Below are positions 23,685 through 41,884 of a stretch of DNA of 52,946 bases, piece after piece. Under the pieces are notes generated by a model. That model was not told the origin of the DNA. It did no database searches and saw nothing but the letters and a program-made list of their open reading frames with translations. The stretch covers positions 1 through 52,946 of IMG/VR virus record IMGVR_UViG_3300020129_000041, one strand, 5' to 3'. This stretch comes from a virus. The position numbers were made by a program, and so were the translations under genes. How positions within the stretch are numbered: the first letter of the stretch is position 1; the number at the start of each line of letters is the position of its first letter.

Positions 23685-24051
23685 TGCTCACCCCGCCACG
23701 GCAGATCATGCTGATCTTACGCCGCCTGCCGTCCATATCCTGAAGCGAAAGAATCTCAAAGGGTTGATCCGGCGGCCCGATGACGATAAGCCGGTCCATC
23801 GTCGTCAGTCCAGCAACGAAGCGGATGATTACCCGGTAGATTGCCGACGAAAGTATCTCCTTGCCGATCAGGCTCTCGATCTCCATCCCGCGCAGGCCTT
23901 CGATGGGCTGGATATCTGCCCACGCTGCGGCAAAGTCGGTGAAGGTCGGGACCATCTCGCCGGTATCGTCCTGCGAGTCGGCGCGCTTCTGGATCATAAC
24001 CCGATCGCGAAGCTGGCCCGCGCGGACGCCAGGATAGGTTGCGGCTGGCAT
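23677..24051 (-). CDS. Phage head closure protein (head-tail adaptor)
   Basis: This 124-residue product has GQLRDRVMIQKRADSQDDTGEMV, FAAAWADIQPIEG and a late YRVIIRFVAGLTTMDRLIV, as in SPP1 gp16/HK97 head closure proteins. Gene order (connector, closure, gp10-like, terminator, tube) agrees. Confidence 0.88.
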   Translation of the reverse strand: MPAATYPGVRAGQLRDRVMIQKRADSQDDTGEMVPTFTDFAAAWADIQPIEGLRGMEIESLIGKEILSSAIYRVIIRFVAGLTTMDRLIVIGPPDQPFEILSLQDMDGRRRKISMICRGGVSSG

Positions 24052-24776
24052 CAGGCGATCCCTAGGCGCACGGAGTAGCGTTCCATCAGCGCCGCTGCTC
24101 CAAGCGGTATTTCATGCAATTCTACGTCGAGCGAATTTTCGCGATTCTCATGCAGATGCCCGAGGACGAGCAGCATTGCCGCGCGGAACTCGAATGGTAA
24201 ATCCTGACTGACGGTCGGACTCTGCCCCGTCAACTGATAGCCGCAGGTGTAGCGCACCCTGACGGCCCGCATATTCTGGAACTGCGCGATCGGCCAGAAC
24301 GTCCCCGGTGCCGGATAGAGGACCGACGGTCGAGCGTAATCATTGACGTAATACGCGGATGGGTCCAGCGTCTGCTCCACGCCGCTGCCATCATCGTATT
24401 TTACGGATTCAATTGAGATGAACGGCGATGCCATCGGCAGCATGATGCCGTAGCCCGAACAGTACGGGTACGGCAGATAGCCGCCTGGTGAAACGAAGTT
24501 CCACGCCGACCACGGCGCGCCGGGAAAGGCCCCAATCCCGAGTTCGAGCATCTGCACGCACAGCGCGCACATCGATTGACCTTCGCACCACTCGCGAGCA
24601 ACCGATATGTTCGATTCGATCCAAGCATCTTCATCGCTTAGCGGCGGGCTGCCATAGGCGATTACGCGCAGATGCTCCCGCGCTTCCGAGAGCGTAATCT
24701 GCTCGGCGCTAGGCGGCGTCACGACCTTGAAGTTGAACCGGTCGTAGCGGTAGCGGCTTAAGTCACGGAGATACAT
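24051..24776 (-). CDS. Head-tail connector protein (gp6-like)
   Basis: This 241-residue product has the adaptor pattern TLSEAREHLRV ... DEDAWIESNISVAREWCEG and ends with a helical FEFRAAMLLVLGHLHENREN. The central Tyr/Gly/Pro-rich segment (GGYLPYPYCSGYGIMLPMAS) is longer than in compact gp6-like adaptors. ATG at 24776 shares one base with the upstream stop. A GTG one codon earlier is the alternative. The gene is separated from portal and capsid genes by about 13 kb of accessory and fibre genes. Confidence 0.83.
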   Translation of the reverse strand: MYLRDLSRYRYDRFNFKVVTPPSAEQITLSEAREHLRVIAYGSPPLSDEDAWIESNISVAREWCEGQSMCALCVQMLELGIGAFPGAPWSAWNFVSPGGYLPYPYCSGYGIMLPMASPFISIESVKYDDGSGVEQTLDPSAYYVNDYARPSVLYPAPGTFWPIAQFQNMRAVRVRYTCGYQLTGQSPTVSQDLPFEFRAAMLLVLGHLHENRENSLDVELHEIPLGAAALMERYSVRLGIA

Positions 24777-25462
24777 CACGCCCTCGCAGTTTCCCGCCAG
24801 AGTTCGGCGTGTTCGCAGTGCTCGTATCCCGGCAGGTCAGGCGTACCCTCGGTGAAGTGGACGATGGCCGGACTGTTCCTGCGCGCGTCAATCCCGACCA
24901 GGTGATTCCATTCCGGCGGCAGGCCGCCAATTTCGTCATCTGCGAGGAACCGGAAGGCGTGCAAATCCCGTCCGGGCCACTGATTGAGGGCCATGATGTT
25001 CAATCGGCGAAGCGCGGGATGCGAAGCGTTCCAAAGCGCGACGGAGCTCCAGTTCTTGCGCGGATAGCCGACTTGGGGCTGGCAATCCATCTTCAGGCCA
25101 TCCGCCGCCTGCCACTCCCGCTTCACGACCATGACCGCCTTCGACTCATCAGCGATGGCGAGCAACTCGTTCGGGTCGCGCAGGAACAGCACGTCGGAAT
25201 CCGCGAATAGGCACCAGCCATCATGAGCTAGCACGGGGACGAAGAAGCGCGAGATGGCGAACGCGGTTGACTGCGGAGCGTCGCTATTGATATCCCACAT
25301 CTGCCCTCGGCGGTCCGTGGGCCGCGTAAGCAATCCCGCAGCGCGCAAGCGATCATCGCGCAGCTGGATGACTTCGCAGCCGAACCGGCGAGCAGACTTC
25401 GCGGCCACGTCCCAGGCCGTCGAGAACCTGTCATCCCAGCCGATGTAGACGCGGAGGCTCAA
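24776..25462 (-). CDS. Glycosyltransferase (GT8-like, DXD motif)
   Basis: This 228-residue product begins LRVYIGWDDRFSTAWDVAAKS and has GWCLFADSDVLFLRDP, where DSD (88-90) is the metal/nucleotide-sugar DXD motif. A later LPPEWNHLVG matches the acceptor end of this fold. TTG at 25462 overlaps the methyltransferase stop and follows GAGGAA. It is the last gene of a sugar-related cluster and sits directly before the connector. Transfer of a sugar from a nucleotide donor is well supported, but the acceptor (virion protein, host glycan or DNA) is unknown. Confidence 0.8.
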   Translation of the reverse strand: MSLRVYIGWDDRFSTAWDVAAKSARRFGCEVIQLRDDRLRAAGLLTRPTDRRGQMWDINSDAPQSTAFAISRFFVPVLAHDGWCLFADSDVLFLRDPNELLAIADESKAVMVVKREWQAADGLKMDCQPQVGYPRKNWSSVALWNASHPALRRLNIMALNQWPGRDLHAFRFLADDEIGGLPPEWNHLVGIDARRNSPAIVHFTEGTPDLPGYEHCEHAELWRETARA

Positions 25463-26031
25463 GCTTTCCTCGCCTCTATCCGCATATCGCGCCTAGCACG
25501 GCCTACGGGATGATGTTGCGTCTTAGTTCTCAAGGCATACGCGAAGCCGTTTTCCTCGAGAAACGCTCGCAATGACTTTTCGCTCCAACCCCACTTATGG
25601 AGCATATATGGGTCCTTCGTCCTCGGATCGCCGTAAGCTGCCCACAGTCCGAGCTGGTCCGGATGCTTGTCGCCCGGAATTCCCTCCAAGATATTGCGCG
25701 CCCACTTCATCATGTCCGGCAATTCGAGCACAAGCAGGCCGCCGATCTTCAGTAGCCGTCGCCACTCTGCGATAACTGCCTCGCAGTCCCAGCGGTAGAA
25801 GTGCTCCCAAACGTGAATAGCCATGACCTCGTCCGCGCAGGCGTCCGGAAGTTGGATATTCTTCGCATCGGCGATAAAGTCAGGCGTCACGCCAGCCGCA
25901 GTCTCAACCTCCTGCACGTCTATATTCACATACCCTTCGGCATGATTAATGCCGCACCCGATATTCAGGCGCAGAGGCGATCGGCTAAGTACCGATGCGA
26001 TAAGTTCTTGCCGCTCCTCAAGCTGCAACAC
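25459..26031 (-). CDS. SAM-dependent methyltransferase (class I)
   Basis: The LNIGCGINHAEGYVNIDVQ segment is motif I with its acidic end. IQLPDACADEVMAIHVWEHF is motif II and LLKIGGLLVLELPD motif III of a small-molecule type methyltransferase. The GTG at 26031 has AGGAG seven bases upstream and was preferred to a TTG at 26046. It lies between glycosyltransferase-like genes, so sugar or glycan methylation is the natural inference. DNA methylation motifs are absent. Confidence 0.82.
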   Translation of the reverse strand: MLQLEERQELIASVLSRSPLRLNIGCGINHAEGYVNIDVQEVETAAGVTPDFIADAKNIQLPDACADEVMAIHVWEHFYRWDCEAVIAEWRRLLKIGGLLVLELPDMMKWARNILEGIPGDKHPDQLGLWAAYGDPRTKDPYMLHKWGWSEKSLRAFLEENGFAYALRTKTQHHPVGRARRDMRIEARKA

Positions 26032-26839
26032 GGTCGCGCTCCTCAATCCGCGATAGCAGAAACTGCCAGCACTGCGCCGCCTCGCTAGGCCGCCATTGGA
26101 ACCAAGCCAGATTGCGCAGGAAGCGCAGACGCTGCTCTAGCGTCGGCCTCACCGGGAAAGCCAACTCATTACCGTAAAGCGCGCTCGCAGCGCCGTCCCA
26201 GCAAACGACCGGAATACCAGCGATACAAGCGTCGACAGCCACATTGGAGTGCCGGCATACGACCAGCGAAGCGCCCTTTAGAACCTGCTCGATCGGCATA
26301 CCCGCCATCTTGCTCGTCCCGGGCAGCGTGGTTCCATCTTCGCGCTTCGGTCGGAAAATAACCTCGGCTCTCGGATACGCCGCTCGGATGCGCTTGAGCG
26401 CGTCGCGCTCCCAGGTCAACCACGGTTGAGCAAGCGCGGTATTCGTCTTCGGCCCGAGCCCGACGAGCACGATCGGGCCGTTCGGGTCGTAGTCCTCGCG
26501 CAACTTGACCCCGGAAGAGTCGAAGCGCTCGGCCGGTCGATCATCCAGCCACGCCTGCGGGTGATCTTGATCGATCGTCATGCGCATGGCCCGGTCGGTC
26601 TCTCCGCCACGCATCCAGTATCCAAGATCGAAGCCGACCATGTGCCGCCCGCTAGCGAGGTGCTTATCGATCCAAGGACGGCGGCCGACGTGACCCATCC
26701 CGTAGACCATAAGCAAGTCGGATTGGCCGAGATAGCGCTGATTGCGGACAATCAGCATAGGCGAGGAGCGATACATCGCATCCAGCATATCCCTGCCCGG
26801 TTTATACATCAGTGGATCGACCAGAATCTCGCACTTCAT
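26018..26839 (-). CDS. Glycosyltransferase-like protein, 273 aa
   Basis: The C-terminal half has GPIVLVGLGPKTNTA, RIRAAYPRAEVIFRPK, IEQVLKGASLVVCRHSNVAVDACIAGIPVVCW, the two-domain (GT-B) donor-site pattern seen in capsule synthesis and Kdo-type transferases. The ATG at 26839 overlaps the upstream stop (ATGA). Acceptor and sugar cannot be told from sequence. It resembles the product at 27944 in overall plan. Confidence 0.68.
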   Translation of the reverse strand: MKCEILVDPLMYKPGRDMLDAMYRSSPMLIVRNQRYLGQSDLLMVYGMGHVGRRPWIDKHLASGRHMVGFDLGYWMRGGETDRAMRMTIDQDHPQAWLDDRPAERFDSSGVKLREDYDPNGPIVLVGLGPKTNTALAQPWLTWERDALKRIRAAYPRAEVIFRPKREDGTTLPGTSKMAGMPIEQVLKGASLVVCRHSNVAVDACIAGIPVVCWDGAASALYGNELAFPVRPTLEQRLRFLRNLAWFQWRPSEAAQCWQFLLSRIEERDRVAA

Positions 26840-27684
26840 AGCGACTCCAGCCAGGTGCGGTACTGCGCTGCGATTGCCTCTATTCGCGGGGTCTTGGCGT
26901 GCATCAGTTCCGAACGCCACGAACGGGCGCCGTTCTCAGCCGACAGCGTATCGAAGGCTGACTCCATCTCAACGGGCGTGTCGGCCCAGAGTTCGGCGCC
27001 GCTGGCGGTCTCGAGGTATCCGCGTTCCCGGTTCAGCACGCAGGGAACGCCGGCCGCCTGCGCATTGGCGAGCTTGACGTTGCTCTTCCAGTTCTTCGCT
27101 GCGTATCCGTCGGCATCCCTGACGGCGACCACGATATCGAGTGCGGAGACTGAGGGCGGCTTTGGGTCGAATCGCCAGCCGCGTTTGCGGCAGGCTCCGT
27201 CGATGTCCGCGAACCAGCCGTTGATATAACTTTGACCGCCTTCGTAGCCGACACGGCTTATCTCCGGTCTGACGGTGGCGCGCTCCAATCCCGGGCGAGC
27301 ATGGTGCGGCAGGACAAGCGTCGGCAGGCCGAACGGCGAGAGGTCGGAGGCCATTGCCGAAGTCGATGCTACGACCGCTGCCGGCCGGATCGCCTTGATC
27401 TCGCGCTTTAACCATTGGACGCAGACGTCGCGCTCCCACCAATTGCCTATCGGCTGCGGCCAAGCGTCGACGATATCCCAGACGATCGGCACACCGGCGG
27501 CGCGCAGCCGCGCTACTGCGCCGGCGTTCGGACGCTTGACTACGATCGCCAGATCAGGCCTCTGGCCTCCCGCGAGCGGGTCGCCGAAGTTCGACAGCGA
27601 CGCGCCGAGCGCGCGCCCCAGCTGTTCCCCGCGGATGCGCCAGGAGGCGGAAGCGTTCGAGCCGACGAGTAGGAGCCGCTTCAT
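26836..27684 (-). CDS. Glycosyltransferase-like protein (GT-B), 282 aa
   Basis: The start MKRLLLVGSNASASWRIRGE is a Rossmann strand-loop. AAVVASTSAMASDL and LPTLVLPHHARPG resemble the N-domain end of GT4-type enzymes. A C-terminal SALDIVVAVRDADGYAAKNW and LANAQAAGVPCVLNRERGY fits the donor-binding region. An AAGGA site precedes the ATG at 27684. Third sugar-transfer candidate in the cluster. Confidence 0.7.
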   Translation of the reverse strand: MKRLLLVGSNASASWRIRGEQLGRALGASLSNFGDPLAGGQRPDLAIVVKRPNAGAVARLRAAGVPIVWDIVDAWPQPIGNWWERDVCVQWLKREIKAIRPAAVVASTSAMASDLSPFGLPTLVLPHHARPGLERATVRPEISRVGYEGGQSYINGWFADIDGACRKRGWRFDPKPPSVSALDIVVAVRDADGYAAKNWKSNVKLANAQAAGVPCVLNRERGYLETASGAELWADTPVEMESAFDTLSAENGARSWRSELMHAKTPRIEAIAAQYRTWLESL

Positions 27685-27689
27685 GGTCC

Positions 27690-27947
27690 TTACGTCGGCG
27701 TTCCCACGCAGGCGAAGACGCACGGCGCGTTGCCGCCCGTATCCGGACTCCCGACCGCCGGGAAGCCATAGGAGACCAGCCAATAACTGTCCGAAACCTT
27801 CGTCAAGGTCGGGTTATCCGAACTGCCAACCCCAAGCGCTTGGAGGATCTTGCCGACCGTCGGCGGCGTATCGCCCGAGAACGTATTTACCGGGCTATTG
27901 ATCGCCAAAAACTGGTTCAGGGGATAAAGCCGCCAGGTATAGTTCAT
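27690..27947 (-). CDS. Hypothetical protein, 85 aa
   Basis: This is a short beta-rich product (MNYTWRLYPLNQFLAINSPV...) with two cysteines near the end in CVFACVG. ATGA coupling to the upstream gene and tight spacing downstream show that it belongs to the operon. Small virion or fibre-adaptor proteins can look like this, but no family is recognised. Confidence 0.6.
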   Translation of the reverse strand: MNYTWRLYPLNQFLAINSPVNTFSGDTPPTVGKILQALGVGSSDNPTLTKVSDSYWLVSYGFPAVGSPDTGGNAPCVFACVGTPT

Positions 27948-28726
27948 GCCGCCTCCATGAGTTTCCGGTCAAGCAGATGCGCTATCGCTTCGCCGCTGGC
28001 GATCTCGCCGATTCGCCACTGCGCCCAGATCAGGCGCCGGAACATCGCAAGCCGCGCGGCTTGGTCAGTGTTCGGCTCAACGGTCCCGAACTGCTCGAGC
28101 GGTCGGCCAGCGCCGGCCCCGATCCAGTGCTGGAACCCGTACCAGACCGGAACGCCGAGCATGAGCGCGCCTAACGCGGCCGCGCTATTCCAGGTTGCGA
28201 CCGCCGAAATATCGGCCAGATCACGCGCCAGCGCGACCTTTGGCGGATTCGTGCCCGGGTGCGGCCTGATGCGTCCGCCGTACTTGGCGCGCGTCCTTTC
28301 CGCCCATTGCGGCGGGGAGGCAATGCCAGGTTCTCCAATCCCGCGCTGCGCGAGCACCAGCAAGCAGCCAGAACGCTCGCGGAAAGGCGCTAGATCGATG
28401 CCTAATGCATCCCAGCGCTCGGGGTCGCCCTCAGACCAAGTCCCCGCGCCCGCATGGTGTCCTAGGGCCATTGCGAGCCAGGTATCGCCACGCCAGGACT
28501 TGCCTAGATAGCCGTTTTCGACCACGAGCACGGCCGCGCCAGCGCGCTCGTACTGCTTAGCAGCCTCTGCGCTCGCTCCGTAACGGTTCCAGATCACCAA
28601 GGCGTCGCCTGGTGCCGGGTCCGGAATCGACGGCCTGACCGAGAAGCCGGCGGCCGACAGACCCTTCAGGAACGCTGCCCGCCGGTCCTTAAGAGAATCC
28701 CGGATCATGCAGCAGGCGCGGTTCAT
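27944..28726 (-). CDS. Capsule-synthesis/Kdo-transferase-like protein, 260 aa
   Basis: This has GDALVIWNRYGASAEAAKQYE, AVLVVENGYLG, a helical middle, and ISAVATWNSAAALGALMLGVPVWYG late in the protein. The last pattern (serine/asparagine loop before an ALxxGxPV strand) is typical of capsule polysaccharide transferases. It shares its plan with 26018-26839. Function as a sugar transferase is inferred. Confidence 0.62.
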   Translation of the reverse strand: MNRACCMIRDSLKDRRAAFLKGLSAAGFSVRPSIPDPAPGDALVIWNRYGASAEAAKQYERAGAAVLVVENGYLGKSWRGDTWLAMALGHHAGAGTWSEGDPERWDALGIDLAPFRERSGCLLVLAQRGIGEPGIASPPQWAERTRAKYGGRIRPHPGTNPPKVALARDLADISAVATWNSAAALGALMLGVPVWYGFQHWIGAGAGRPLEQFGTVEPNTDQAARLAMFRRLIWAQWRIGEIASGEAIAHLLDRKLMEAA

Positions 28727-29484
28727 GCCAGCGCCTCGTCCAGTTTCACGCGCGGGAAGCAGGTCAGGCGCGTGCGCCGGCTGGCATTCCTAACAACGAC
28801 GCCCATTTCTGCCAAGCCCCACGCCAATCGGACGAAATTAGCCGCCCAGATCTCGTATTGCGGAACGCTATGCATGGGCCGCGGGTGATCGCCATGCCAG
28901 TGCGAGCGCCCAACAGCGTCTGCTCCGACGTCGAAGCCGAGCAGAACGATCCGCGCCGCTCCGACTTGATATGCCAGGCCAACCGCCTGATAGCCTCCGT
29001 TCGCACCCTGGTTGATGACTCCGATGCGCTTGCCGAGTCCCGGCTTGGTCTCGCTTCGCACCAAGTGTAGCCGCGTCCATTTCTTCGCGGCGACCTCGTC
29101 CTGGGTCCAAAGCTGGCCGGCGAATGAGTCGAGTTTCTGGTAAAAGGCGTTCCACCAGCGACCGTCGCAGGCGTAGAGGACATCGGCCCAGGGCGCGCGC
29201 TGGTAACTGTTATTGACCACAATCACCCGGCGATCCCTGCCATTGCGCCACGCGCCGACAGCCTCGCAATCCTCAACCGTCAGGCTCGGGCCGCTCGCGA
29301 TCACGACCACGGAAGCGCCGCGCCACGGCAGCGCATCCCAATATAGCCGCTGGCCGACCGGCGCGGCCGCGCCTTCGCTGACCAGTTGCAGAGCGGTCCG
29401 CTCACAGTCGGCAACGAATTCCTGCCCGTCGGCGATCGTTCCGACGCCGATATCCAAGTTTCGGAGGGCGACTAGGCGGGTCAA
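28723..29484 (-). CDS. DUF115 / Maf-like protein, possible glycosyltransferase
   Basis: This 253-residue product has VVVIASGPSLTVEDCEAV, the ASGPSL motif of DUF115/Maf motility-associated proteins, then VIVVNNSYQRAPWADVLYACD, INQGANGGYQAVGLAYQVGA and IVLLGFDVG. Maf proteins add nonulosonic acids to flagellin in bacteria (family knowledge). TTG at 29484 overlaps the upstream stop and has GAGGGA before it. It is a key hint that the cluster may glycosylate proteins. Confidence 0.72.
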   Translation of the reverse strand: MTRLVALRNLDIGVGTIADGQEFVADCERTALQLVSEGAAAPVGQRLYWDALPWRGASVVVIASGPSLTVEDCEAVGAWRNGRDRRVIVVNNSYQRAPWADVLYACDGRWWNAFYQKLDSFAGQLWTQDEVAAKKWTRLHLVRSETKPGLGKRIGVINQGANGGYQAVGLAYQVGAARIVLLGFDVGADAVGRSHWHGDHPRPMHSVPQYEIWAANFVRLAWGLAEMGVVVRNASRRTRLTCFPRVKLDEALA

Positions 29485-29783
29485 GCTTCCCTCACCGGGA
29501 GTATCGAGAGCTTCTGGAAGATGCAGCCGTCAGCGCGTTCCACGGTCGCCCGTACCCGATAATCGGCGCCGACCACGCCTCCGCGCATCAGTTGGAACAT
29601 CGCCCCATCCTCCATCCAAGGCTCCGAATCAAGTATAGCCTTCGGGTCAGGATCCTGGACGCGGGAACTCGAATCAATTTCAGCCTCCACGTGCAGCGAT
29701 TTCGCCGCCATCCCGCCGAGTTCCGACCGGAAGTCCCAAGAGATCGGCAACCGCTCCGCCGGGTATTTGAGGTTCAGTCTCAC
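29481..29783 (-). CDS. Phage fibre-tail adaptor-like protein, 100 aa
   Basis: The pattern PISWDFRSELGG ... GADYRVRATVERADGCIFQKLSILPV matches small phage fibre-tail adaptor proteins (W-D-F start and a final strand of the form V.....DG....) as I remember them. The GTG at 29783 forms GTGA with the upstream stop and has GGAGGG seven bases away. ATG at 29798 would overlap more. Probably structural. Confidence 0.65.
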   Translation of the reverse strand: MRLNLKYPAERLPISWDFRSELGGMAAKSLHVEAEIDSSSRVQDPDPKAILDSEPWMEDGAMFQLMRGGVVGADYRVRATVERADGCIFQKLSILPVREA

Positions 29784-30715
29784 GCCGCTTCCCTCCATTC
29801 GCGCTCATCGAAGGCGCGCAACTCATCGTTGTGGAAGGATCGCGACTCCTCGTTTAGCCGCCCGCGCTGTTCCATTTGGTCAAAGTTCCGATAGCCAACC
29901 GCCAGCGATGCCCCTTCGGCAACAGCGGATGCCATTCCCGACGCCGTTCCTGCGGCGCTTGCAATGGACCTAGCATCACCCTTCGATATCGCGCCAGCGA
30001 CCGCGTATGCGGACGCAGACCGGACCATGACAAAGCGGATCGGACCGAGGCCAGGTGGGCCGCCAGTTCCGACGTTTACTTCGGCGTGCGGCGTGACGCC
30101 GCGGGCAGACGAACTGCCGTTCGCTATCCCGGTAGCCTGAGCGATCTCACCCGATGCGGCTGCTGCGCTGGCGGCTCCGAGAGCGGTCCCGCTCGCGGCC
30201 CACAGCGAGCGAGCGTGACCGACGGCGGCGCTCGAGCCGGATGCCATTCCTGCGGCTTCGTCGGCTTCCTCCGACGCCCCGACCGCGGACGCCGAGCCAA
30301 GAGCCGAGCCGACCGCGCGTTTGAGCGCTGCGGAGACTGCGGCGGCGATCGATGATCCAGATGCGGTGCCATTGGCAGAAAACAGTTCCCGGCCGACCGC
30401 TGCGGCAGTCGAAACCCCTGATGCTGAGCCGACTGCTTTGTCTGTTTCCCGACCAACGGCGGCGGCGGTAGCGTGTCCGCTTGCCGCGCCAACCGCAGTT
30501 CCAACTTCCTTCCCGACGGCCGAAGCGGTCGCATGACCTGACGCGCTGCCAACCGCAATGCCAAGTTCGGCGCCAACGGCGGACGCGGTTGCTTGTCCTG
30601 TCGCCGTACCGACACCAGATACGAGCAAGACTAACGGCCGATCGATCGTCCACGACGCGAGGTCGCTCGACTGCCCGGGGTCAGTGAATAGATTGGACGA
30701 CCAAAGAAAGATCAT
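29780..30715 (-). CDS. Ala/Gly/Ser 20-residue repeat protein
   Basis: This 311-residue product has an N-terminal segment (MIFLWSSNLFTDPGQSSDLASW), then at least six imperfect 20-residue units of the form VG.E.G.AVGSASG.ATA.A (about residues 47-165), further degenerate units, and a charged C-terminus (GYRNFDQMEQRGRLNEE). The N-terminus looks like a virion attachment segment. Repeats of this composition may form a rigid beta or trimeric rod. It lies in the fibre block. Function as an elongated fibre is inferred. Confidence 0.72.
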   Translation of the reverse strand: MIFLWSSNLFTDPGQSSDLASWTIDRPLVLLVSGVGTATGQATASAVGAELGIAVGSASGHATASAVGKEVGTAVGAASGHATAAAVGRETDKAVGSASGVSTAAAVGRELFSANGTASGSSIAAAVSAALKRAVGSALGSASAVGASEEADEAAGMASGSSAAVGHARSLWAASGTALGAASAAAASGEIAQATGIANGSSSARGVTPHAEVNVGTGGPPGLGPIRFVMVRSASAYAVAGAISKGDARSIASAAGTASGMASAVAEGASLAVGYRNFDQMEQRGRLNEESRSFHNDELRAFDEREWREAA

Positions 30716-31341: not shown

Positions 31342-32562
31342 TTACATGGTCGCCAGGATAGGCGCCCCGGCCATATTGTTGGATGACGTATTGGCCGGGT
31401 AGTTCGTGGCTACGTTGAAGCAGCGCGTCGCTAGACAATTAAAGCTCACGAGAGTGAGTCCAAGGCTTGCATCGCAATCGGTAAAGTTTGTGAAGATAGC
31501 CAAGGAAAACGCGCCAGATGGAATTACGATCTTGTAGTGTCCGCTCCCTGGAGTGGTGGATACAAAGTTTGCAGAAGAAGTCGTGGTGGTCGTCCCCGAG
31601 GTAGCGAACTGACCACTCACGGTCATCTTCTGACCCGCGGTGATGGTGTAGGTCTTTGGACCGCCGCTAAGAGCAGAGTTGTTCAAGATGCCAAGCGTGA
31701 AGTCAGAGCCAGCAAAAGTCAGTGCTGCATTCGGTAACGTGAACGTATGCGTAGCAGGCAAAGTATTCGTGCCACTCCATGTGATCGTTGCCGCAGCAGC
31801 TACCACGATCGTAACGGTAGCAGCCCAACCCGTTCCCAAAACCAACGTGCAACTGGACTGCAAGTTCAAGCTCGGTGTCGAGGCACCGGTTGTTGTGCCG
31901 CTCGTATAACTCAGCGTCCCGGTTCCGTATTTAACCGATCCGCTAACAGTGAAAGTATTTGCTCCAGCCGCGATAGTGAGGTTGTTATTGATTGTCCCGC
32001 CGCCGGAAGTCCACGTCGTCGTCGATATTGCCGACGTGATGTTGATGAGAGTCGTCCCCGTAATTGAACCCGAGGTCAAGCCATTGAAGTTTCCGCCGGC
32101 AACATTTATCGTGTGTCCATTCACGACAACATTGCTAGAACCGGACCCAAAATTAAGAGTGGAACTTGGAGCAATAAGTCCTCCAACAGTCCAATCGTCG
32201 CCTAGCGTGTAAGTGTTTGCTCCCTGCAAGTTAAGACTGCCCTGCCACGCCTTGCCACCGCTCGTCATGGTGAGCGTGCCATTAAGCGTAATCGTAGCCG
32301 TCCCGGATGCGGCGACCAAGGTCATTCCAGAAACGAATTTTAGAGTGCTGGTGAGCGTCAGAACAATGGAGCCGTTAATCGTGAACGTACCAACGTAATT
32401 CGTGAAGTCAAGCGACGCGCAAGCGGCATTCGCCGTTACTGTCAGATTGCCAGAGGAAGCGGTCGCGGTTACCGTGTCCCCGGCTACTGGCACCTGCGCA
32501 GGAGACCAACTGGCGGTCGAGTTCCAGTTCCCTCCGGCATTGCTGATGACGATTGCGGTCAT
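31342..32562 (-). CDS. Beta-helix/G8-like fibre protein, 406 aa
   Basis: The protein is almost entirely Thr/Ser/Gly-rich short strands. It opens NWNSTASWSPAQVPVAGDTV, the start of many parallel beta-solenoid surface proteins, followed by repeats of the kind TLTLNGTLTMTSGG and LNLQGANTYTLG. Such proteins in phages are adhesins or depolymerases. No catalytic residues are evident. The start overlaps the 1,092-residue gene's stop (ATGA), so both are made together. Confidence 0.75.
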   Translation of the reverse strand: MTAIVISNAGGNWNSTASWSPAQVPVAGDTVTATASSGNLTVTANAACASLDFTNYVGTFTINGSIVLTLTSTLKFVSGMTLVAASGTATITLNGTLTMTSGGKAWQGSLNLQGANTYTLGDDWTVGGLIAPSSTLNFGSGSSNVVVNGHTINVAGGNFNGLTSGSITGTTLINITSAISTTTWTSGGGTINNNLTIAAGANTFTVSGSVKYGTGTLSYTSGTTTGASTPSLNLQSSCTLVLGTGWAATVTIVVAAAATITWSGTNTLPATHTFTLPNAALTFAGSDFTLGILNNSALSGGPKTYTITAGQKMTVSGQFATSGTTTTTSSANFVSTTPGSGHYKIVIPSGAFSLAIFTNFTDCDASLGLTLVSFNCLATRCFNVATNYPANTSSNNMAGAPILATM

Positions 32563-35500
32563 GGCTTAAACGAGAACCGAGCTTGTGTTTGGACACCGGG
32601 AAACTTCGGCAGCTTCGCCGCGAGCGCAGCGTGATACCAGGAGTAGCAAGCATCAGCACCCGCTACGAGCATCGTCTTGGCAAGCGCGAGCGCCGCATCC
32701 AGGTGCAGATAGAACGACAGATAGCCGTGCGGCGGGTAGGAAGTCAGGTCCGGTATCAGCGTCTTGCCATCCCATCCCGCATCATTGATCGGCCAAAACT
32801 GCGGATAGGATGAGGCGTCAGTGTCAGAGTGCCCATCGCTGCCATGCTTATAGTACGCCCAGCAATCCGCCCAGTTGATCGGCGCGGTTGCATCGCTGCT
32901 GATCGGCTGCGGATATTGGGTATAGTCGCTATACGCTGCCGTGTTCTTGTTCGGGATCGAGTAGTACGGCATCGGCCATTGCCGATTCCAGCCGCTGGTG
33001 CCGTTGGTCATCGCGATCTGTTTGCCGATAGACCAATTAAAGACGGGCGTCCATTCCGAGAATCCCATCTGTACGCCGATGCCGACCTGCGTCGATAGCC
33101 ACGCACCTTGCCATGACGAGCAGATGTTCGTATGCGTCCACTCGCGGAACATCGAGTGGATGCGCGCGGGCGCGTTGACGAACTGCATCGAGAACGCGAG
33201 GTTGTCGTCGAGGCACGCCTTGAAGTACGAGCGCGGTTGCAGCCACATCGGGACGCTTGTCGGCGTCGATGCCGCAGCGAGGAACAGATCACGCAAGCCC
33301 CAAGCGTAGCAGCGCGTCTCGCCAGGATAGATGAGGCCCGGGAGCTTCTGGAGTTGACGCGGCCCGAGGTCATAGAGAATGCGCCGATTGATCCCGAACT
33401 GTAACGCCTCGAGCATGAACGGATCATCGGTCAGGAGCCACGGCGCGTTGGCGTTCGCGTACCAGTGTGCGCCGCCATCGATGCCGACGAAGCCCGGATT
33501 GGCCGGCCCGGCATCATAGCGGGAGTGCGGCGTCGCGTTGAGCGCGCCGCCTTCGTTGCTCACGGCGCTGGTCAGATCCCGGCACATGAGCATCGAGCCA
33601 TCCGCCGCGCGAATATGCATCGGGAAGTTGCCGGTCCACTCGCCTTCAGTGCGCAGGGTGCGCAGATTGTTCGCTGCGCCAAATATCGCGTAGCTTGCGG
33701 CGCTCTCGGTAAGGTGTCCGAGCTCGTCATGATCGCCACCGGCAGCGGTTGCCGGAGTGAAACCGCCGGTAAACATGCCGGGGTTTGGCTGCGTCAGCGG
33801 CCCCGGCCACGCGACGTCTGCGCCATATGAGCCCTGGCCGAACATTCCATCCGTGGCGAAGTTCGGGATCCACTTCCGAGCGATTAATGTCGCTGGAGTG
33901 CGAACGACCGGCCGCATCGAAGATTGGTGCCGCCAACGCGAATACCACCAATGCTTGGCGATCGCGTAAGTTGCGAGCGTCTTGCCAACCTTGCTGACGG
34001 TCGCCGTATACGGTCCAACGTCGACCGGAGTCCCGACTGTCGCACGCCCGTACTCGACGACGATCTCGTCGCGCCAGCCAGCGGCGGGCGCGACGATACG
34101 CGCCCCGGTAGCATCGGCGTCCACGCGAAACCAGATGCGCCAATCGGGAAACGCGGCCGACATGCAGAGATACGACTTCTGTCGCACGAACTCGCCGACG
34201 AAATCGCCCATATCGGCCGCGCCCTTTCCCGCGAAGGCTGCCACCTTGCCGCCACCGAAGTCGAGCGTGATCGCGAGATCATCTACGTTCGACTGCTTAC
34301 TCGGTGACGGCAGGCTAGGGTTTACTGCATTTCCCGGAGGTCGGTAGACCCATGTTCGCGGCTTCGTCAGATTGTTTCCGTCCTTGTCGCTGTTCCATAG
34401 GAACACGAAGCATCCGCTGGCGTCATCGAAGGCTACGCAGTGCGACTCGGAGCAGATATTTACTCCGGTAGGATTGTCAGGATTCGGCTCGACCGTGACG
34501 ACGCTGGTACTCCATACGCGCGTCACCGGATCGAGTTCGTAGTGTGTGCCGTCCAGGATCATGCCGCCGAACTTCTTGCTCCAATTGTTGCGCCGCGAAT
34601 TCGAATTCTTGCTCCACTTCCACGTCGGGACCGGCCCTGTGCATGGCACAAGGATGCAAGTGCTCGCCGCGAAGTTGGCGCGGTTCAGTGTGACTTCATA
34701 AAGCTTGTACGGCAGCGGTGTCTGCGCCGAGCCGCCGTAGTCGTTCGCCACAATGTAAAACTTGTCGTTTTCTGGCCAATACGCCATTGAGTGCGCTTCG
34801 ATGGATGCGCCTGGCGCGCCGGCTGTCGCGACGCTCGGCCCTTTTTGCACTACCACGTCCGAGCCGCCCAGCGTAACGAGCCAGAAGTTCGCGGCTCCAT
34901 CCTGGCGATCATTCGACACGATCAGCACCTTGCCCGTAACCGGGTCGAGAACTCCCGCACCCGCATTCGACCACGCCTGTCCCCCACGATGGTCTTCAAC
35001 TCCGCCCGTGAAGTCGCCCGTCTTGATCGCGGAGAACGCGTACTGCCCCGAATCCAGGTCGTACCAAAACATCCGGCCGCCCCAGTACGTACCGCTCGTG
35101 ACGCCAGGGAGATAATCCGGCTGACCCCGCCCGGTGAGGCAATAGAGGTAGCGATGCCCGCCAGTATCAACTCGGAAAATCAGTTGATAAGTATGGCGAG
35201 CGGTCGGGTGGTTCGTGCTTATATAGCGCCCGAAGTTGAGATCGATATTCGCGACCGTCATATCTGCGACGTTCGTCGGCGCGTGAACGTTCGACCAAGT
35301 AAGCGTGACGAGATCGAACACCCGAATCGTCGTCTCCTGCGACGGGCCATGGCCGCCCCCGCGCAGGTAGACCTTGTCGCCGATAATCTCTGCGCAAAGG
35401 CCGCTGTCGTCCACGATGCTCGCGGCCCGCAATCCGTTCGTGCTGAACTGCGGGTCTGGGTTTGCGTAAGGCCCGAGATTCCGCGCCGTATTCGCGGGCA

Positions 35501-35837
35501 GATCGGCGAAGCGGCTCGTCGTCGCAGTCGCAACCGTTACCAACGCACTCGCCGTCGCGCTGCCGGCGCTGTTCGTCGCCCCGAGCGCAAAGGTGTGGTT
35601 GGCCGTCACCGGCAGCGTCACCGGCAAGCTTGGCAGCGCAACGCCGTCCAGAGTAAGTGTCGGCGCCGGGCTTCCGCCAATCGTCGCCGATAGCGTGACG
35701 CTGCCGCCACCGACTGGCAATGTTGCCGGGACCACCGCGAAACTAGTGATCGTTGGAGCAACGGGTGGAGCGCTAAGAGACTGCGCCGTCGCCAGCGCCG
35801 TTTGCAAATCAGTAATAACCGTTGCAACGGTCGCCAT
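32559..35837 (-). CDS. Large surface protein: Ig-like, propeller and probable helical toroid domains
   Basis: This product has 1,092 residues. The N-terminus MATVATVITDLQTALATAQSL resembles the whole start of the small protein at 35841. Next is an Ig-like domain (about 27-105, PTITSFAVVPATLPVGG), a beta-propeller-like region with repeated blade ends (about 110-480, including VFDLVTLTWSNVHAP and YELDPVTRVWSTS), a short beta linker, and a final part of about 450 residues rich in Trp, Tyr and His and dominated by helices (HWYANANAPWLLTDDPF, RILYDLGPRQLQKLPGLIYP). The last part resembles an (alpha/alpha) toroid of glycan-degrading enzymes, but no catalytic motif was identified. Confidence 0.78.
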   Translation of the reverse strand: MATVATVITDLQTALATAQSLSAPPVAPTITSFAVVPATLPVGGGSVTLSATIGGSPAPTLTLDGVALPSLPVTLPVTANHTFALGATNSAGSATASALVTVATATTSRFADLPANTARNLGPYANPDPQFSTNGLRAASIVDDSGLCAEIIGDKVYLRGGGHGPSQETTIRVFDLVTLTWSNVHAPTNVADMTVANIDLNFGRYISTNHPTARHTYQLIFRVDTGGHRYLYCLTGRGQPDYLPGVTSGTYWGGRMFWYDLDSGQYAFSAIKTGDFTGGVEDHRGGQAWSNAGAGVLDPVTGKVLIVSNDRQDGAANFWLVTLGGSDVVVQKGPSVATAGAPGASIEAHSMAYWPENDKFYIVANDYGGSAQTPLPYKLYEVTLNRANFAASTCILVPCTGPVPTWKWSKNSNSRRNNWSKKFGGMILDGTHYELDPVTRVWSTSVVTVEPNPDNPTGVNICSESHCVAFDDASGCFVFLWNSDKDGNNLTKPRTWVYRPPGNAVNPSLPSPSKQSNVDDLAITLDFGGGKVAAFAGKGAADMGDFVGEFVRQKSYLCMSAAFPDWRIWFRVDADATGARIVAPAAGWRDEIVVEYGRATVGTPVDVGPYTATVSKVGKTLATYAIAKHWWYSRWRHQSSMRPVVRTPATLIARKWIPNFATDGMFGQGSYGADVAWPGPLTQPNPGMFTGGFTPATAAGGDHDELGHLTESAASYAIFGAANNLRTLRTEGEWTGNFPMHIRAADGSMLMCRDLTSAVSNEGGALNATPHSRYDAGPANPGFVGIDGGAHWYANANAPWLLTDDPFMLEALQFGINRRILYDLGPRQLQKLPGLIYPGETRCYAWGLRDLFLAAASTPTSVPMWLQPRSYFKACLDDNLAFSMQFVNAPARIHSMFREWTHTNICSSWQGAWLSTQVGIGVQMGFSEWTPVFNWSIGKQIAMTNGTSGWNRQWPMPYYSIPNKNTAAYSDYTQYPQPISSDATAPINWADCWAYYKHGSDGHSDTDASSYPQFWPINDAGWDGKTLIPDLTSYPPHGYLSFYLHLDAALALAKTMLVAGADACYSWYHAALAAKLPKFPGVQTQARFSFKP

Positions 35838-36834: not shown

Positions 36835-37824
36835 TTATCTCAGTCTCACTACTGGCTGAGGAGCCGGCGCGCTGCGCGCAACGGCGTCTCCATCCCGTCC
36901 GTCGGTTCCCTTCTTCACGCACAGAATCCAATCATCGCTCTGCCCTGGGCATTCGATTGTTTTCTCGGCGCGGCAATACCATTGCGATCCGCTCCGCGTA
37001 ACCGTATCTCCGAGCTCGTATTGGTCTTGCTTCCACACGCCACGGTTGAGCTGCGTCGGCGTAAAGAATGGCGCCTCGAGCACAGTCCCATTGAGCAGCG
37101 TGAGCAGCATCATGAAATGCCGATGATCTCCCGAGTCCTTGACCTCGAACTTGATACCAGCGAGCAACTTGGGGAGCACGGCATCGGCGACCGTCGCGAT
37201 CACCGAAGGATCATCCGCGCTCTTCCCATCGCGACCCGGCCTTCCGTCGCGCCCTAATTCGCCTTGCTTGCCGCGTAGCCCAGGCTCGCCCTGAACGCCG
37301 AAGCCGTCTTTGCCCTTCAGCGATACCAGCCATTGCTGAACCGTCCCCGCGAAACCTTCCTTGACAGCGAGATCGAACGCGCTTGCTCCAGGCGGCCCCA
37401 TCTCTCCGCGATCACCTTTTATCGACTCGCCTTTTTCGCCGCGCTCTCCGGGTTGCCCATCCTTCGGCTTCGGGACTCGCTCGAGTACGGCAGTTACGAT
37501 GGCATCAACGTCCGGCGCTGGCGCATCCTTTCCAGGCTCCCCATCTTTAGCAGGCGGAAGCGCCTTGAACGCTTGGTCGACCCGCACCAGAACGTCATGC
37601 GTGACCGTCTCAGAGACTTCAGCGGCCAACGCCTTCACGTCCACCGCCGGAGCGTCCTTACCCGGCTGCCCAGGAGCGCCGTCTTTAGGCACAGGAAGCG
37701 CCCTTAGCTTCGCCTCCAATTCATCCACGCGATCCATCAAAGGCGCATAGCGCTTGGCGACATAGCCCTCGATCGCTTGGAACAGTTCCTCCTCGAATTC
37801 CAGCGTCAGGCCGTCATCGCTCAT
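36835..37824 (-). CDS. Collagen-like phage protein
   Basis: This 329-residue product has an N-terminal helix (LEFEEELFQAIEGYVAKRYAPLMDRVDELEAKLRAL, broken here), three helical stretches separated by collagen G-x-y tracts (KDGAPGQPGKDAP, GDRGEMGPPGASAFD, GEPGLRGKQGELGRDGRPGRDGK) and a C-terminal globular part with WKQDQYELGDTVTRSGSQWYC. It starts four bases inside the portal stop. It may be a capsid or tail fibre built as a trimer. Confidence 0.82.
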   Translation of the reverse strand: MSDDGLTLEFEEELFQAIEGYVAKRYAPLMDRVDELEAKLRALPVPKDGAPGQPGKDAPAVDVKALAAEVSETVTHDVLVRVDQAFKALPPAKDGEPGKDAPAPDVDAIVTAVLERVPKPKDGQPGERGEKGESIKGDRGEMGPPGASAFDLAVKEGFAGTVQQWLVSLKGKDGFGVQGEPGLRGKQGELGRDGRPGRDGKSADDPSVIATVADAVLPKLLAGIKFEVKDSGDHRHFMMLLTLLNGTVLEAPFFTPTQLNRGVWKQDQYELGDTVTRSGSQWYCRAEKTIECPGQSDDWILCVKKGTDGRDGDAVARSAPAPQPVVRLR

Positions 37825-39194
37825 GCGGCGTTCCTTAGTCTGCGCGCGACGCGGGCGAAAGACAGCACCTTGGTCGGCACCTTCGGTTCATTCGGCGTCG
37901 GCAATGCGGGCGGACTCGGATCGGACGCGGCAGGCGTAGCACTCGGAGGCCCGCGCTCGGCGAGCTGGTTGAGCGGGTAATTCTGTTGCTGCAAGTAAGG
38001 CGTCTCGCCACCCTTGACTGGCGGCAGGTCTTCCTTCGCCCGCGCTTCGTTCGGCGAGAACACCGCGCTCTGGATCAGTTTCGAGTAGGTCTCGGCGCGG
38101 GCCTGCGGGTCCATCCTGAGCAAGCCCTCTAGATCGAACTCGACATATTGGCCCGCGGCAAGTCCGAGTCCTTCGCCAAGCAGCGCTTCGATGCCCTCGA
38201 TGTGTTCCTGTAACGCCTGCGAATAGTATTCCTGATTCAACGTCGCCAATCCCGATGCCGGCAACGTCGAGCCGCCAAGTTTGTAAAGCGGAATACCGAA
38301 CGGCCGTACCACGTCCTCGACGGTCCACTTCAGCTGCTCGATCAACTGTGCCTGGTCCGCCGGCATCGTCATGGTCTCGAACTTCATGCCGCCCGTCGTC
38401 ACGAGAATGCGGCCGACGTTGGCGCCGGTAAAGCCTTCGGTAAGTTCCTTTTTCAATTCCGCGAGCCGAGGGTCGGAGATCGTTCCCGGCGCATCCAGAT
38501 GCCCGCTCGGGCGCGACATGTTCTCGAAGAATCGCGCGCTGTTCGCCTGGATCCTTATGCCCTGCGTTGCGCTCGCAGCGCAAGCATAGATGGGCGAGAC
38601 TCCGACCAGCGGATGCCAGAGCGCAGGGCAACGGTCGTGGATGATCTCGCGCGCGGCTACCGTCGGGCTGTCTGTCACACCAGCTAACTGATCCGGAGAA
38701 GCGATCTGATACCAAACGCTTCCGTCACCGCCAACCAACGGCTTGACGTGGAAAGGATTCAGTGGATACAGCGCGATCACAACTCCGCTTCCGTCGCGCT
38801 CCTTTAGGATGTACGAATTGCCATGCATCAGTTTCGACACCATCCACTGCGAGAAGAACTGGATGCGCGTCTGATAACGATTGGGCTTGCGCAGTACCGC
38901 TAGCGCTGCATCGCCTTGCATAACCTCCTGTCCGATGTCGCCAACCTGCCGCATCAGTTTCGGGCGGATCTTGGAAATGTCGCCAGCGATCAAGCGGACG
39001 CAGGCGTAAACCGTGGAGAATGCGAAAATATTGGCGTTGCCGAGCGGTTCTATGTTCCGCTGCCACGCACCGGGGAACATCTCGCGCACGATCCCCCAGA
39101 GCGGCGCAAAGCCTCCTGGCGGAAGCTGCGTGACCATCTCCATGCCTTTTTCAAGGCCGTCATAGTCGCGCTGTGGCTGGGCGAAGAGTCTCAT
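37821..39194 (-). CDS. Portal protein (HK97 family)
   Basis: This 457-residue product has FAFSTVYACVRLIAGDISKI, LMHGNSYILKERDGSG, YPLNPFHVKPLV, FGIPLYKLG and LNQEYYSQALQEHIEGIE, all standard PF04860 portal motifs. It is preceded by a TTG-initiated microgene and followed by the collagen-like gene. The portal forms the DNA channel of the capsid and binds the terminase. Confidence 0.95.
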   Translation of the reverse strand: MRLFAQPQRDYDGLEKGMEMVTQLPPGGFAPLWGIVREMFPGAWQRNIEPLGNANIFAFSTVYACVRLIAGDISKIRPKLMRQVGDIGQEVMQGDAALAVLRKPNRYQTRIQFFSQWMVSKLMHGNSYILKERDGSGVVIALYPLNPFHVKPLVGGDGSVWYQIASPDQLAGVTDSPTVAAREIIHDRCPALWHPLVGVSPIYACAASATQGIRIQANSARFFENMSRPSGHLDAPGTISDPRLAELKKELTEGFTGANVGRILVTTGGMKFETMTMPADQAQLIEQLKWTVEDVVRPFGIPLYKLGGSTLPASGLATLNQEYYSQALQEHIEGIEALLGEGLGLAAGQYVEFDLEGLLRMDPQARAETYSKLIQSAVFSPNEARAKEDLPPVKGGETPYLQQQNYPLNQLAERGPPSATPAASDPSPPALPTPNEPKVPTKVLSFARVARRLRNAA

Positions 39195-39454: not shown

Positions 39455-41884
39455 CTACAGAGTGATACCGTCCCAGACCACGACTGCGTGCGTGTGCCGC
39501 GGCAGGTAGTTGATGTACCTCTCGGCGCGCAGGGCGATCAAGTTGTTCTGATACAGGGAAACCAGACTGACCGCGCCGCCCGCTGGTGCATCGCTCATCT
39601 CGAGCGATGCCTCCGAGCTCATATCGACCGTCATCGCGCCGTCGTCCGAGAGGAAAATCTCGCTCGGATTCATAAACACGGCGTAAGTCTCGTTGGCCGA
39701 CACTGCGCTGATGTGGATGTTATTGGTCGTCAGGACTGGATAGCCCTTGAACGTTCCGCCCTCTGGTCCGACGTCCGGATATGCGAGGACGCCGTTCGTC
39801 GTGCGGAGCGTGCTCAGGCCGATCGCCGTCCTGGGAGACATTACCCAGACGCAACCCGTCAACGGGATATTGTTATTCGCCAACTCCCCATAGATCTTCG
39901 CGACGTCGGAATCGACGCCGGCAATCGTTGCAGCGCTAAAGTTGATCTTCGTCGCGCCGTTAGTCAGAGAGGCCGGCGAGACGTTGGATACCGCGGCGAC
40001 GTCCGGATCAAGCGCTTGCTCATCGCCGAATTGCGAGATTGCCCGTGCCATGTCGGTCCGGACCGTCTCTTGCGCCGACGGATTGGAGAACCGCACCAGT
40101 TCGTCCGTGGTCACGACGAGGCTCACCTGCTTGGCGAAACGCATCGTGATGAGATCGAACGCAGCCTTCGATAGCGGCTTCGGCGCGCCCTGTCCCGCCC
40201 ACTTGCCAGACGTTCCCGCGGTCATCCTCGGGATGGAGACGTTGAACGGAACGCGGTGGAAATTGTTGATGCGCCCAAGCACTGTCATCGGGCGCAGGAA
40301 TTCGACGAACTCGGAGGCCATCGGCTGCAACTGCACCAACGGACCCGCCCAGCTTCCATCGGTCGTCGTGCCGGCAGCAACTGCGGTCTTGAATGCGATC
40401 TCGACCTCCGGCGTCGAGTCGCGGAACTGCTTCGCGCGTTCGGCCGCCAGCATGAGATTACCGCGGGCGTTCGCCAGACACATCGCGTAGCGAACGAACG
40501 CCATGCCCTTCGGCAGATTTGAGTTGGCGCGAATCACGCCATCGCCGTATTTCACGGTCGACGCCGGCTCGACTACCGCCGCAGCCGCACCGCCGGCCCC
40601 GTTCTTAGCGGGTTCGACCGCTTGGGCGTGCTTGAGTATGAAGGCTTCGTGATCTTTCAGCCGGACGATGTGCTTGTCGCACGTTTCGACTTCGCGCTTC
40701 AGTTCCTCGTATCTCTCGTTTTCCTCCGCGGTCGCAGTGCGGCCTTCCTTGGCCCAAACCGCGACGATTTCGTTCATCGCCGCAGACGACGATGCGCGCT
40801 TCGCCTCGTATTGCGTTACCTGTTCCGTTGTGGTGCTCATTGTTTCTGTTCCTTTGGTTGATTGGGATGAGGTTCCCGAAGCGCCGGGAGGATTCAAACG
40901 CACGACTCGGTCTGCATTTTGGCCTAGCGCGGCCGGCAGTCCTATGTCGTAAGCCTTCACCGAGGTAATACAAGCCTCGACGTTCATTGGTATGGAGACG
41001 GCTGACAACTCGTGCCAGCCCCATTTGGTCCAGCGTGTGGCGAGCGGATTGCCTTTGATCGGCTCGCCTTCGATTCCGCTCCAGCCGATTGATAGTCCGC
41101 GGACAAGTTTGTCGCGTATCTTGACCCATGCGCCTTGCAGATCATCCTTGAGTTGCTGCGGATAGTCGGCTTTCGGTTTCGCGACCATTCCCTTGACCGG
41201 AATGCCCTTGGCATTCGGCGTCGCCGCGGTAATCCAGCCGATTGGATCGGTGATCGAGCCTTTGCCGTGCTGCCAAAGCAGAGGAATCGGGAGCGCAAAC
41301 TCCGCGCCCATCGGATCCATGCTGTCGTCGCCGAAGTCGAGCAGCGGCGTCGATGCGATTCCCTCGAAGGTGTAGGAGTCGCCCGTCTCCCCGACGGCCT
41401 TGATATCGAAAGTCGCCCACGCGATTCGGTGATGGGCCTCTTTTCCTGATGCGGCAGTCGTATCTGCGCCCCACGGCACCGCGATCGTGTCATCGCTGAA
41501 TTTGTCCCGCGCCTTCGCATAGTAGGCGGCAACCTTGCGCTTGACGCCAGCTCGATCAGCGGCCGGGATATCGACCCCGCCGCGCGCGCCCTGCATGACC
41601 GCTGCAACGGCGACGATGGCGTGCCAGACGGAGACCGCCGCGCCGTCGATCACATCCGCGAACTTCAGCTTATAGCCGCTGAAATTCATCTTGTTGCCGG
41701 GATCGCGCCAGAAATGGACCGAGGCGTACTTCTCCCAATCCATCTTGTCCTTATCCCCGCTCCCATCGCTTGACGCCCAGGCGCGGATGCGCGTCTCCGC
41801 CTCGTTGTCGATATAGGCGCGGTCGCGCTCGTCCGATAGGGGAATGTCCGTCGAGCCGGACGCCGCCTTGGTCTGTTCGCTCAT
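39455..41884 (-). CDS. Prohead protease / major capsid protein fusion
   Basis: This 809-residue product has three parts. An N-terminal domain (about 30-135, HFWRDPGNKMNFSGYKLKF) is typical of some prohead proteases. A U35/S78-type protease domain (about 150-330) has LLWQHGKGSITDPIGWI with the catalytic His and GLSIGWSGIEGEP with the catalytic Ser. A helical delta-like segment and HK97-type capsid domain start near residue 349 (MSTTTEQVTQYEAKR). AAAGGAAC lies eight bases before the internal ATG at 40840, so free capsid protein may be made directly as well as by protease cleavage of the fusion. Confidence 0.92.
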   Translation of the reverse strand: MSEQTKAASGSTDIPLSDERDRAYIDNEAETRIRAWASSDGSGDKDKMDWEKYASVHFWRDPGNKMNFSGYKLKFADVIDGAAVSVWHAIVAVAAVMQGARGGVDIPAADRAGVKRKVAAYYAKARDKFSDDTIAVPWGADTTAASGKEAHHRIAWATFDIKAVGETGDSYTFEGIASTPLLDFGDDSMDPMGAEFALPIPLLWQHGKGSITDPIGWITAATPNAKGIPVKGMVAKPKADYPQQLKDDLQGAWVKIRDKLVRGLSIGWSGIEGEPIKGNPLATRWTKWGWHELSAVSIPMNVEACITSVKAYDIGLPAALGQNADRVVRLNPPGASGTSSQSTKGTETMSTTTEQVTQYEAKRASSSAAMNEIVAVWAKEGRTATAEENERYEELKREVETCDKHIVRLKDHEAFILKHAQAVEPAKNGAGGAAAAVVEPASTVKYGDGVIRANSNLPKGMAFVRYAMCLANARGNLMLAAERAKQFRDSTPEVEIAFKTAVAAGTTTDGSWAGPLVQLQPMASEFVEFLRPMTVLGRINNFHRVPFNVSIPRMTAGTSGKWAGQGAPKPLSKAAFDLITMRFAKQVSLVVTTDELVRFSNPSAQETVRTDMARAISQFGDEQALDPDVAAVSNVSPASLTNGATKINFSAATIAGVDSDVAKIYGELANNNIPLTGCVWVMSPRTAIGLSTLRTTNGVLAYPDVGPEGGTFKGYPVLTTNNIHISAVSANETYAVFMNPSEIFLSDDGAMTVDMSSEASLEMSDAPAGGAVSLVSLYQNNLIALRAERYINYLPRHTHAVVVWDGITL
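40840..40855 (-). promoter_or_regulatory. Internal ribosome-binding site and ATG for separate capsid protein
   Basis: Within the fused gene, AAAGGAAC followed by eight bases and an ATG (40840-40838) would start a 461-residue protein consisting only of delta region plus capsid fold. It implies two products from one gene. Confidence 0.6.

Follow-up and report, generated by a model that had tools for sequence, protein, structure and literature searches.

Why does a tailed phage carry a run of sugar-transferase genes inside the operon that builds its virion? The question is raised by the IMG/VR virus record IMGVR_UViG_3300020129_000041, a stretch of 52,946 bases that is called the window here. 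The late operon of this tailed phage lies on the minus strand. Five glycosyltransferase-like genes and a class I methyltransferase gene occupy positions 24776-29484 of it. All six had been recognised in an earlier annotation (the original prediction), which proposed that the phage glycosylates its own virion proteins and methylates the sugar. A seventh, small open reading frame (ORF), SM, had been overlooked, and the set reads ST, KA, SM, GTB, KB, MT and GT8 in the order of transcription (Table 1). Our analysis also favours virion glycosylation with sugar methylation. With a probability of about 0.7, the set encodes a cytoplasmic pathway by which the phage glycosylates proteins of its own virion. 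This reading is strengthened by the seat of sugar genes in a virion operon, by the recurrence of the set in other phages, and by the Maf-like fold of ST.

Recurrence in order in other phages shows that the set is a true unit and not a chance association. Viral and bacterial contigs were gathered by searches with ST, KA, KB, GT8 and GTB and were scored with profiles built in this analysis. The six families occurred together in 27 non-redundant viral contigs, 21 of which kept the exact order ST-KA-GTB-KB-MT-GT8. The original prediction had offered a lack of conservation as grounds for its own rejection, and it survived this check. KB was found by tblastn in 26 of 26 six-gene loci; a search with the single KB protein gave one locus, and family profiles were needed to find its relatives. 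Judged by eye, a second methyltransferase-like ORF is frequent between KA and GTB in relatives. SM replaces it in the window, and no relative of SM was found by tblastn in the other loci. The same slot holds a type IV pilin-like ORF in L240:4018-4485 (phrog_3433 pilin, E = 7e-10). The closest complete relative, L003, carries an extra methyltransferase-like ORF upstream of its fibre genes (L003:4329-4955).

ST is far more widespread than the set and forms 168 clusters at 80% identity. Virion genes adjoin ST in 142 of these clusters and lie on both sides of it in 102, and all 821 scored virion genes nearby share its strand. The commonest form is ST alone, or ST with a methyltransferase or with a fusion of a GT-D domain and a methyltransferase. 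ST or the set most frequently lies between head or portal and connector. Other slots in virion operons are connector to closure and closure to neck, and further ones are neck to tape measure (L120, L127, L139) and tape measure to tail tip (L158, L161). This variety suggests that the set was placed among late genes repeatedly. In a second form of the set a GT9-like enzyme replaces GTB, as found in Caulobacter giant phages and in environmental phages (L005-L009, L022, L044, L105). The Caulobacter phages CcrBL9 and CcrColossus resemble the window in having a co-directional series of a tail protein, ST, KA, a second K protein, a GT8-like protein, MT and GT9. They differ from it in the use of GT9 for GTB and in a position beside tail and lysis genes instead of the connector, and their genes are mostly annotated as hypothetical. 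The recurrence of six families mostly in fixed order, and the position of ST beside same-strand virion genes in most clusters, favour glycosylation of the virion.

The GT-D fusions form a group of their own. The one in L029:10584-11765 (GT-D domain, Pfam E = 1e-32) directly follows ST, and similar ORFs are present in L023, L027, L028, L032, L036 and L037. In loci with such a fusion, another ST copy, a divergent one, is found further along.

Within the window, the set lies between fibre genes and the head-tail connector gene, and its genes are tightly joined, as had been predicted. From position 29798 down to the connector, nearly all junctions are 4-bp start/stop overlaps; the exceptions are a 5-bp gap before GTB and a 29-bp overlap before MT. 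No promoter-like or terminator-like site was found within the set on the minus strand, and its GC content matches that of the genome. This location bears on the idea that the enzymes glycosylate hypermodified bases of the phage DNA. Phage glycosyltransferases acting in DNA hypermodification are described in a passage of PMC12619734 that cites Pyle et al. 2024, and the window also encodes DNA methyltransferases. However, the set sits in a late virion operon, and no thymidylate synthase-like or hydroxymethylating gene was seen among the ORFs scanned. Glycosylation of DNA would require neither a sugar methyltransferase nor four elongating enzymes. To our knowledge, the known DNA glucosyltransferases do not have the Maf/CstII or Kdo-transferase folds which we found in the set. 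We consider a role in DNA modification very improbable.

The proposed starter enzyme is ST. It matches phrog_4603 "alpha-2,3-sialyltransferase" (E = 4e-45), and a profile of 25 ST homologues gave the CstII sialyltransferase as the top PDB match (E about 0.01). The AlphaFold model of ST (predicted local distance difference test, pLDDT, 87.5) is closest to Maf, the Magnetospirillum flagellin glycosyltransferase (5mu5; Z 15.7 over 179 residues, root-mean-square deviation 2.9). CstII (Z 11.7) and an MptE enzyme (Z 11.3) come next, and unrelated folds stay below 5. Plain Foldseek gave low TM-scores with the MptE enzyme first; further structural comparison separated Maf, CstII and MptE. ST has the Rossmann-type fold common to Maf, GT42 and MptE, and it contains the nucleotide-binding G-x-GPS motif and the conserved Asn. 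G65, N91, L181 and G183 are invariant among 39 diverse ST homologues, and S67 is kept in at least 90% of them. Over 165 clusters, the active-site-like residues D185, G183, H195 and N233 are kept in 96%, 97%, 93% and 95%, respectively. As judged from these alignments, such conservation argues for catalysis by ST.

Like Maf (DUF115/MptE-like), ST is cytoplasmic and combines this fold with a GxGPS-type motif. Unlike Maf, with which it shares 13% identity, ST has 253 residues instead of about 630, lacks the extra Maf domains and has no flagellin context. It resembles GT42 CstII in fold and is tied to it by the best sequence-profile match, whose E value is only about 0.01; the acceptor of CstII is lipooligosaccharide, and ST has an HWHGDHP-type motif of its own. 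Because Maf glycosylates flagellin, the nearness of the ST model to it favours a protein acceptor on the virion.

The other enzymes were assigned from profile and fold evidence and not from single-sequence scans. In hidden Markov model scans of single sequences, MT alone among the set proteins passed its Pfam cut-off. The scans were otherwise weak, with no useful Pfam or PHROG match for KA or KB and little for GTB and SM. KB and KA share 22.5% identity by BLASTP (E = 6.5e-4) and align in one family, and their joint profile matches KpsC (E = 5e-6). The KA model (pLDDT 91) has the KpsC/WbbB-type fold, and all of its top 15 structural entries are Kdo transferases (Z 12.6-8.9). KA also shares the HP motif of the retaining beta-Kdo transferases KpsC, WbbB and KrkA. 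In contrast, the catalytic nucleophile D160 of KpsC aligns to an Ile in KA, and the Q-x3-D-x-S motif is found in only 3 of 81 KA clusters. The HMMER profile alignment was used for this comparison, as MAFFT aligned the K proteins and a KpsC fragment with many gaps and unreliably. Thus KA shares the fold, and its catalytic mechanism and donor may be other ones; the label "capsule/Kdo-like" in the original prediction was right for the fold and did not hold for catalysis.

Among 21 members of the GTB family, 10 match Glyco_trans_1_2 and 4 match Glyco_trans_4_4, with a best E value of 6.6e-7. The GT8 profile weakly matches WbbM and a GT8 enzyme (E = 0.0097), followed by glycogenins. The DxD metal-binding motif is present, its D88 and D90 do not vary among 20 members, and the aligned stretch of WbbM contains FIDSD. 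The GT8 protein itself scored 13.3 bits with Pfam Glyco_transf_8, below the cut-off of 24.3 bits.

These likenesses allow another explanation, in which the enzymes act late in infection on the host envelope (lipopolysaccharide or capsule), for example against attachment of released virions to debris or for exclusion of rivals. KA and KB are folded like the Kdo transferases of capsule and O-antigen synthesis, WbbM is an O-antigen enzyme, and serotype-changing phage glycosyltransferases are known (PMC10955285). However, the set has no counterpart of the membrane flippase and polyprenyl-linked transferase that mark Gtr-type seroconversion, and membrane proteins, flippases and polyprenyl-phosphate transferases are all missing from it. 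Membrane-type segments are absent from all set proteins, whose highest Kyte-Doolittle mean over 19 residues is 1.55, and no flippase, polymerase or thymidylate-type base-modification gene was found among the ORFs scanned. The known seroconversion genes lie outside virion operons, and most relatives of the set lie inside them. The starter-like ST is also nearest to a protein glycosyltransferase. We regard modification of the host envelope as unlikely. The lack of membrane segments and of flippase, polymerase and base-modification genes favours glycosylation of the virion.

ST is also present in laboratory phages. In Pseudomonas phage D3 it is orf7, between the major head protein and the head-tail adaptor. 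In PAJU2 it is ORF010, annotated as "structural protein", and the same annotation is given to ST of Klebsiella phage Eowyn. In P1, ST is pmgO (annotated "putative morphogenetic function"), pmgP is a distant copy of it and pmgQ is a glycosyltransferase. In each of D3, PAJU2 and Eowyn, ST is accompanied by a protein of the phrog_6804 type and a methyltransferase of the phrog_6564 type, as seen from PHROG matches for D3 and Eowyn and from the sequence for PAJU2. By eye, the phrog_6804 protein resembles a GT9-type transferase. Again by eye, ST of L014 and L019 is a fusion with a further glycosyltransferase-like domain, which resembles phrog_6804.

The annotations in PAJU2, Eowyn and P1 would suit a different role, in which ST is a structural or assembly protein that has retained an enzyme fold and the other genes are passengers. 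It would also suit the fact that most phages have ST as the sole member of the set. This role is poorly reconciled with the retention of the active-site-like residues, with the fusion or linkage of ST to other glycosyltransferases and methyltransferases, and with P1, in which pmgO, pmgP and pmgQ are not required for growth (PMC10695390). We think it improbable that ST is structural. The dispensability of the three P1 genes fits a decoration role, and together with the linkage of ST to sugar enzymes, by fusion in L014 and L019 or through phrog_6804 and the methyltransferase, it supports glycosylation of virion proteins.

Which virion protein might accept the glycan? The original prediction had pointed to the Thr/Ser-rich fibres next to the set. 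In tblastn searches of the other loci, the four fibre ORFs had no relative (0 of 26 six-gene loci), and we rejected Ser/Thr-rich fibres as the common acceptor. Fibres evolve fast, which limits this recurrence test, and they may nevertheless serve as acceptors in the window phage alone. The same searches did find relatives of the portal, the major head protein, the connector and the collagen-like fibre in other loci. Relatives of the collagen-like fibre were found in 36 loci, including 13 of the 26 six-gene loci, and its C-terminal domain is common to the fibres preceding ST in relatives. In L003:7697-9376 a collagen-like fibre directly precedes ST, and a weak match in L003 likens the C-terminal domain to carbohydrate-binding module 5/12. 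Two of the ORFs near the set in the window have features of their own. The fibre-like ORF at 29780-30715 contains Gly/Ala/Ser/Thr repeats of about 20 residues (GTASGxATAxAVGxE) and has a weak PHROG match at most. The 1092-residue ORF at 32559-35837, between head and fibre genes, contains a stretch that weakly resembles Kelch and gave no match in PHROG. Downstream of the set, the connector is followed by head closure, neck and tail genes.

Table 1. The set and its neighbours in the late operon of the window, in the order of transcription.
Feature	Position	Strand	Basis or remark
Terminase	42446-44161	-	
Major head protein (protease fusion), candidate acceptor	39455-41884	-	phrog_617, E = 4e-106
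Portal	37821-39194	-	
Collagen-like fibre, candidate acceptor	36835-37824	-	Collagen, E = 1.5e-4
Four fibre ORFs	35837-29780	-	Between collagen-like fibre and Gp77-like adaptor
Gp77-like fibre-tail adaptor, directly upstream of ST	29481-29798	-	PF23148, E = 9.7e-5, below cut-off; 4-bp overlap with ST
ST, Maf/GT42/MptE-superfamily glycosyltransferase, proposed starter	28723-29484	-	phrog_4603, profile and predicted fold
KA, GT-B protein with CMP-Kdo transferase fold (KpsC/WbbB/KrkA)	27944-28726	-	Profile and predicted fold
SM, 85-residue ORF, variable slot between KA and GTB	27690-27947	-	ORF call
GTB, GT4-like GT-B glycosyltransferase	26836-27684	-	phrog_7162 glycosyltransferase, E = 2e-4
KB, KA paralogue	26018-26839	-	BLASTP to KA
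MT, class I S-adenosylmethionine-dependent methyltransferase	25459-26046	-	Methyltransf_11, E = 5e-8, above cut-off
GT8, GT8-like GT-A glycosyltransferase	24776-25462	-	phrog_28018 (unnamed), E = 5e-49; profile; D88-x-D90
Head-tail connector, directly downstream of GT8	24051-24779	-	phrog_442, E = 1.8e-15; 4-bp overlap

We infer the following course for the pathway. Its enzymes would be made together with the virion proteins. Before or during assembly, ST would most likely attach the first sugar, probably from a host donor activated by cytidine monophosphate (CMP), to Ser or Thr of a protein of the head, the neck or a head fibre. KA, KB, GTB and GT8 would then extend the glycan sequentially from host nucleotide sugars, and MT would methylate it, perhaps as a cap or an edit. 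The glycan may benefit the virion by shielding it from host receptors, from enzymes or from recognition of other kinds.

Virion glycosylation has precedents, and one of them lends support to this pathway. A passage of PMC11600133, citing Freeman et al. 2023, states that mycobacteriophage glycosyltransferases and an O-methyltransferase modify the capsid and the tail tube. To judge from this passage, the original prediction overstated the novelty of the category when it offered the set as a candidate for an undescribed system. The two systems share phage-encoded glycosyltransferases with a methyltransferase. The set differs in its place within a head-connector operon, in its occurrence mainly in Gram-negative phages and in its Maf-like starter. 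No mycobacteriophage was found among the listed tblastn matches to KA, GTB and GT8, or among the named matches to ST. In chlorovirus PBCV-1, virus-encoded glycosyltransferases and methyltransferases (A064R, A061L) likewise build and methylate the glycan of the virus's own capsid (PMC9614988). Unlike the phage set, this virus infects a eukaryotic alga and uses other enzyme families and another glycan linkage. The novelty here lies in the enzyme set, which differs from those known and has a Maf-like starter, a fixed order, a seat in the virion operon and a reach into classical laboratory phages.

Several points weigh against the proposed pathway. The glycan, the activity and the acceptor are all predicted. 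KA and KB lack the KpsC nucleophile at the aligned site, and their chemistry may differ. The "structural protein" labels in PAJU2 and Eowyn, if they came from detection in virions, could allow a structural ST. We know of no report of glycosylated virions of D3 or P1, both of them well studied, and our literature search, which was not exhaustive, found no paper on glycosylation in D3 or in Caulobacter phages. The podovirus-like L005-L008 and L010 carry helicase, polymerase or integrase genes upstream of the set, and the set of L007 runs convergently with an ejection-protein gene. Because of these positions, co-transcription with virion genes is not universal.

It is possible, although we would not yet call it probable, that protein O-glycosylation of the Maf type, from a lone starter to six genes, is a widespread and overlooked part of head assembly in Gram-negative phages, including P1 and D3. 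If so, the capsids or necks of P1 and D3 would be glycoproteins. The presence of the starter in P1 (pmgO) and in D3 makes the question directly testable in two classical laboratory phages. If the proposed pathway is correct, a function would emerge for a large family whose members are at present called "alpha-2,3-sialyltransferase" or "putative morphogenetic", and with it a natural source of cytoplasmic protein glycosyltransferases. Glycosylated virions would then be common in Gram-negative phages and not a speciality of mycobacteriophages.

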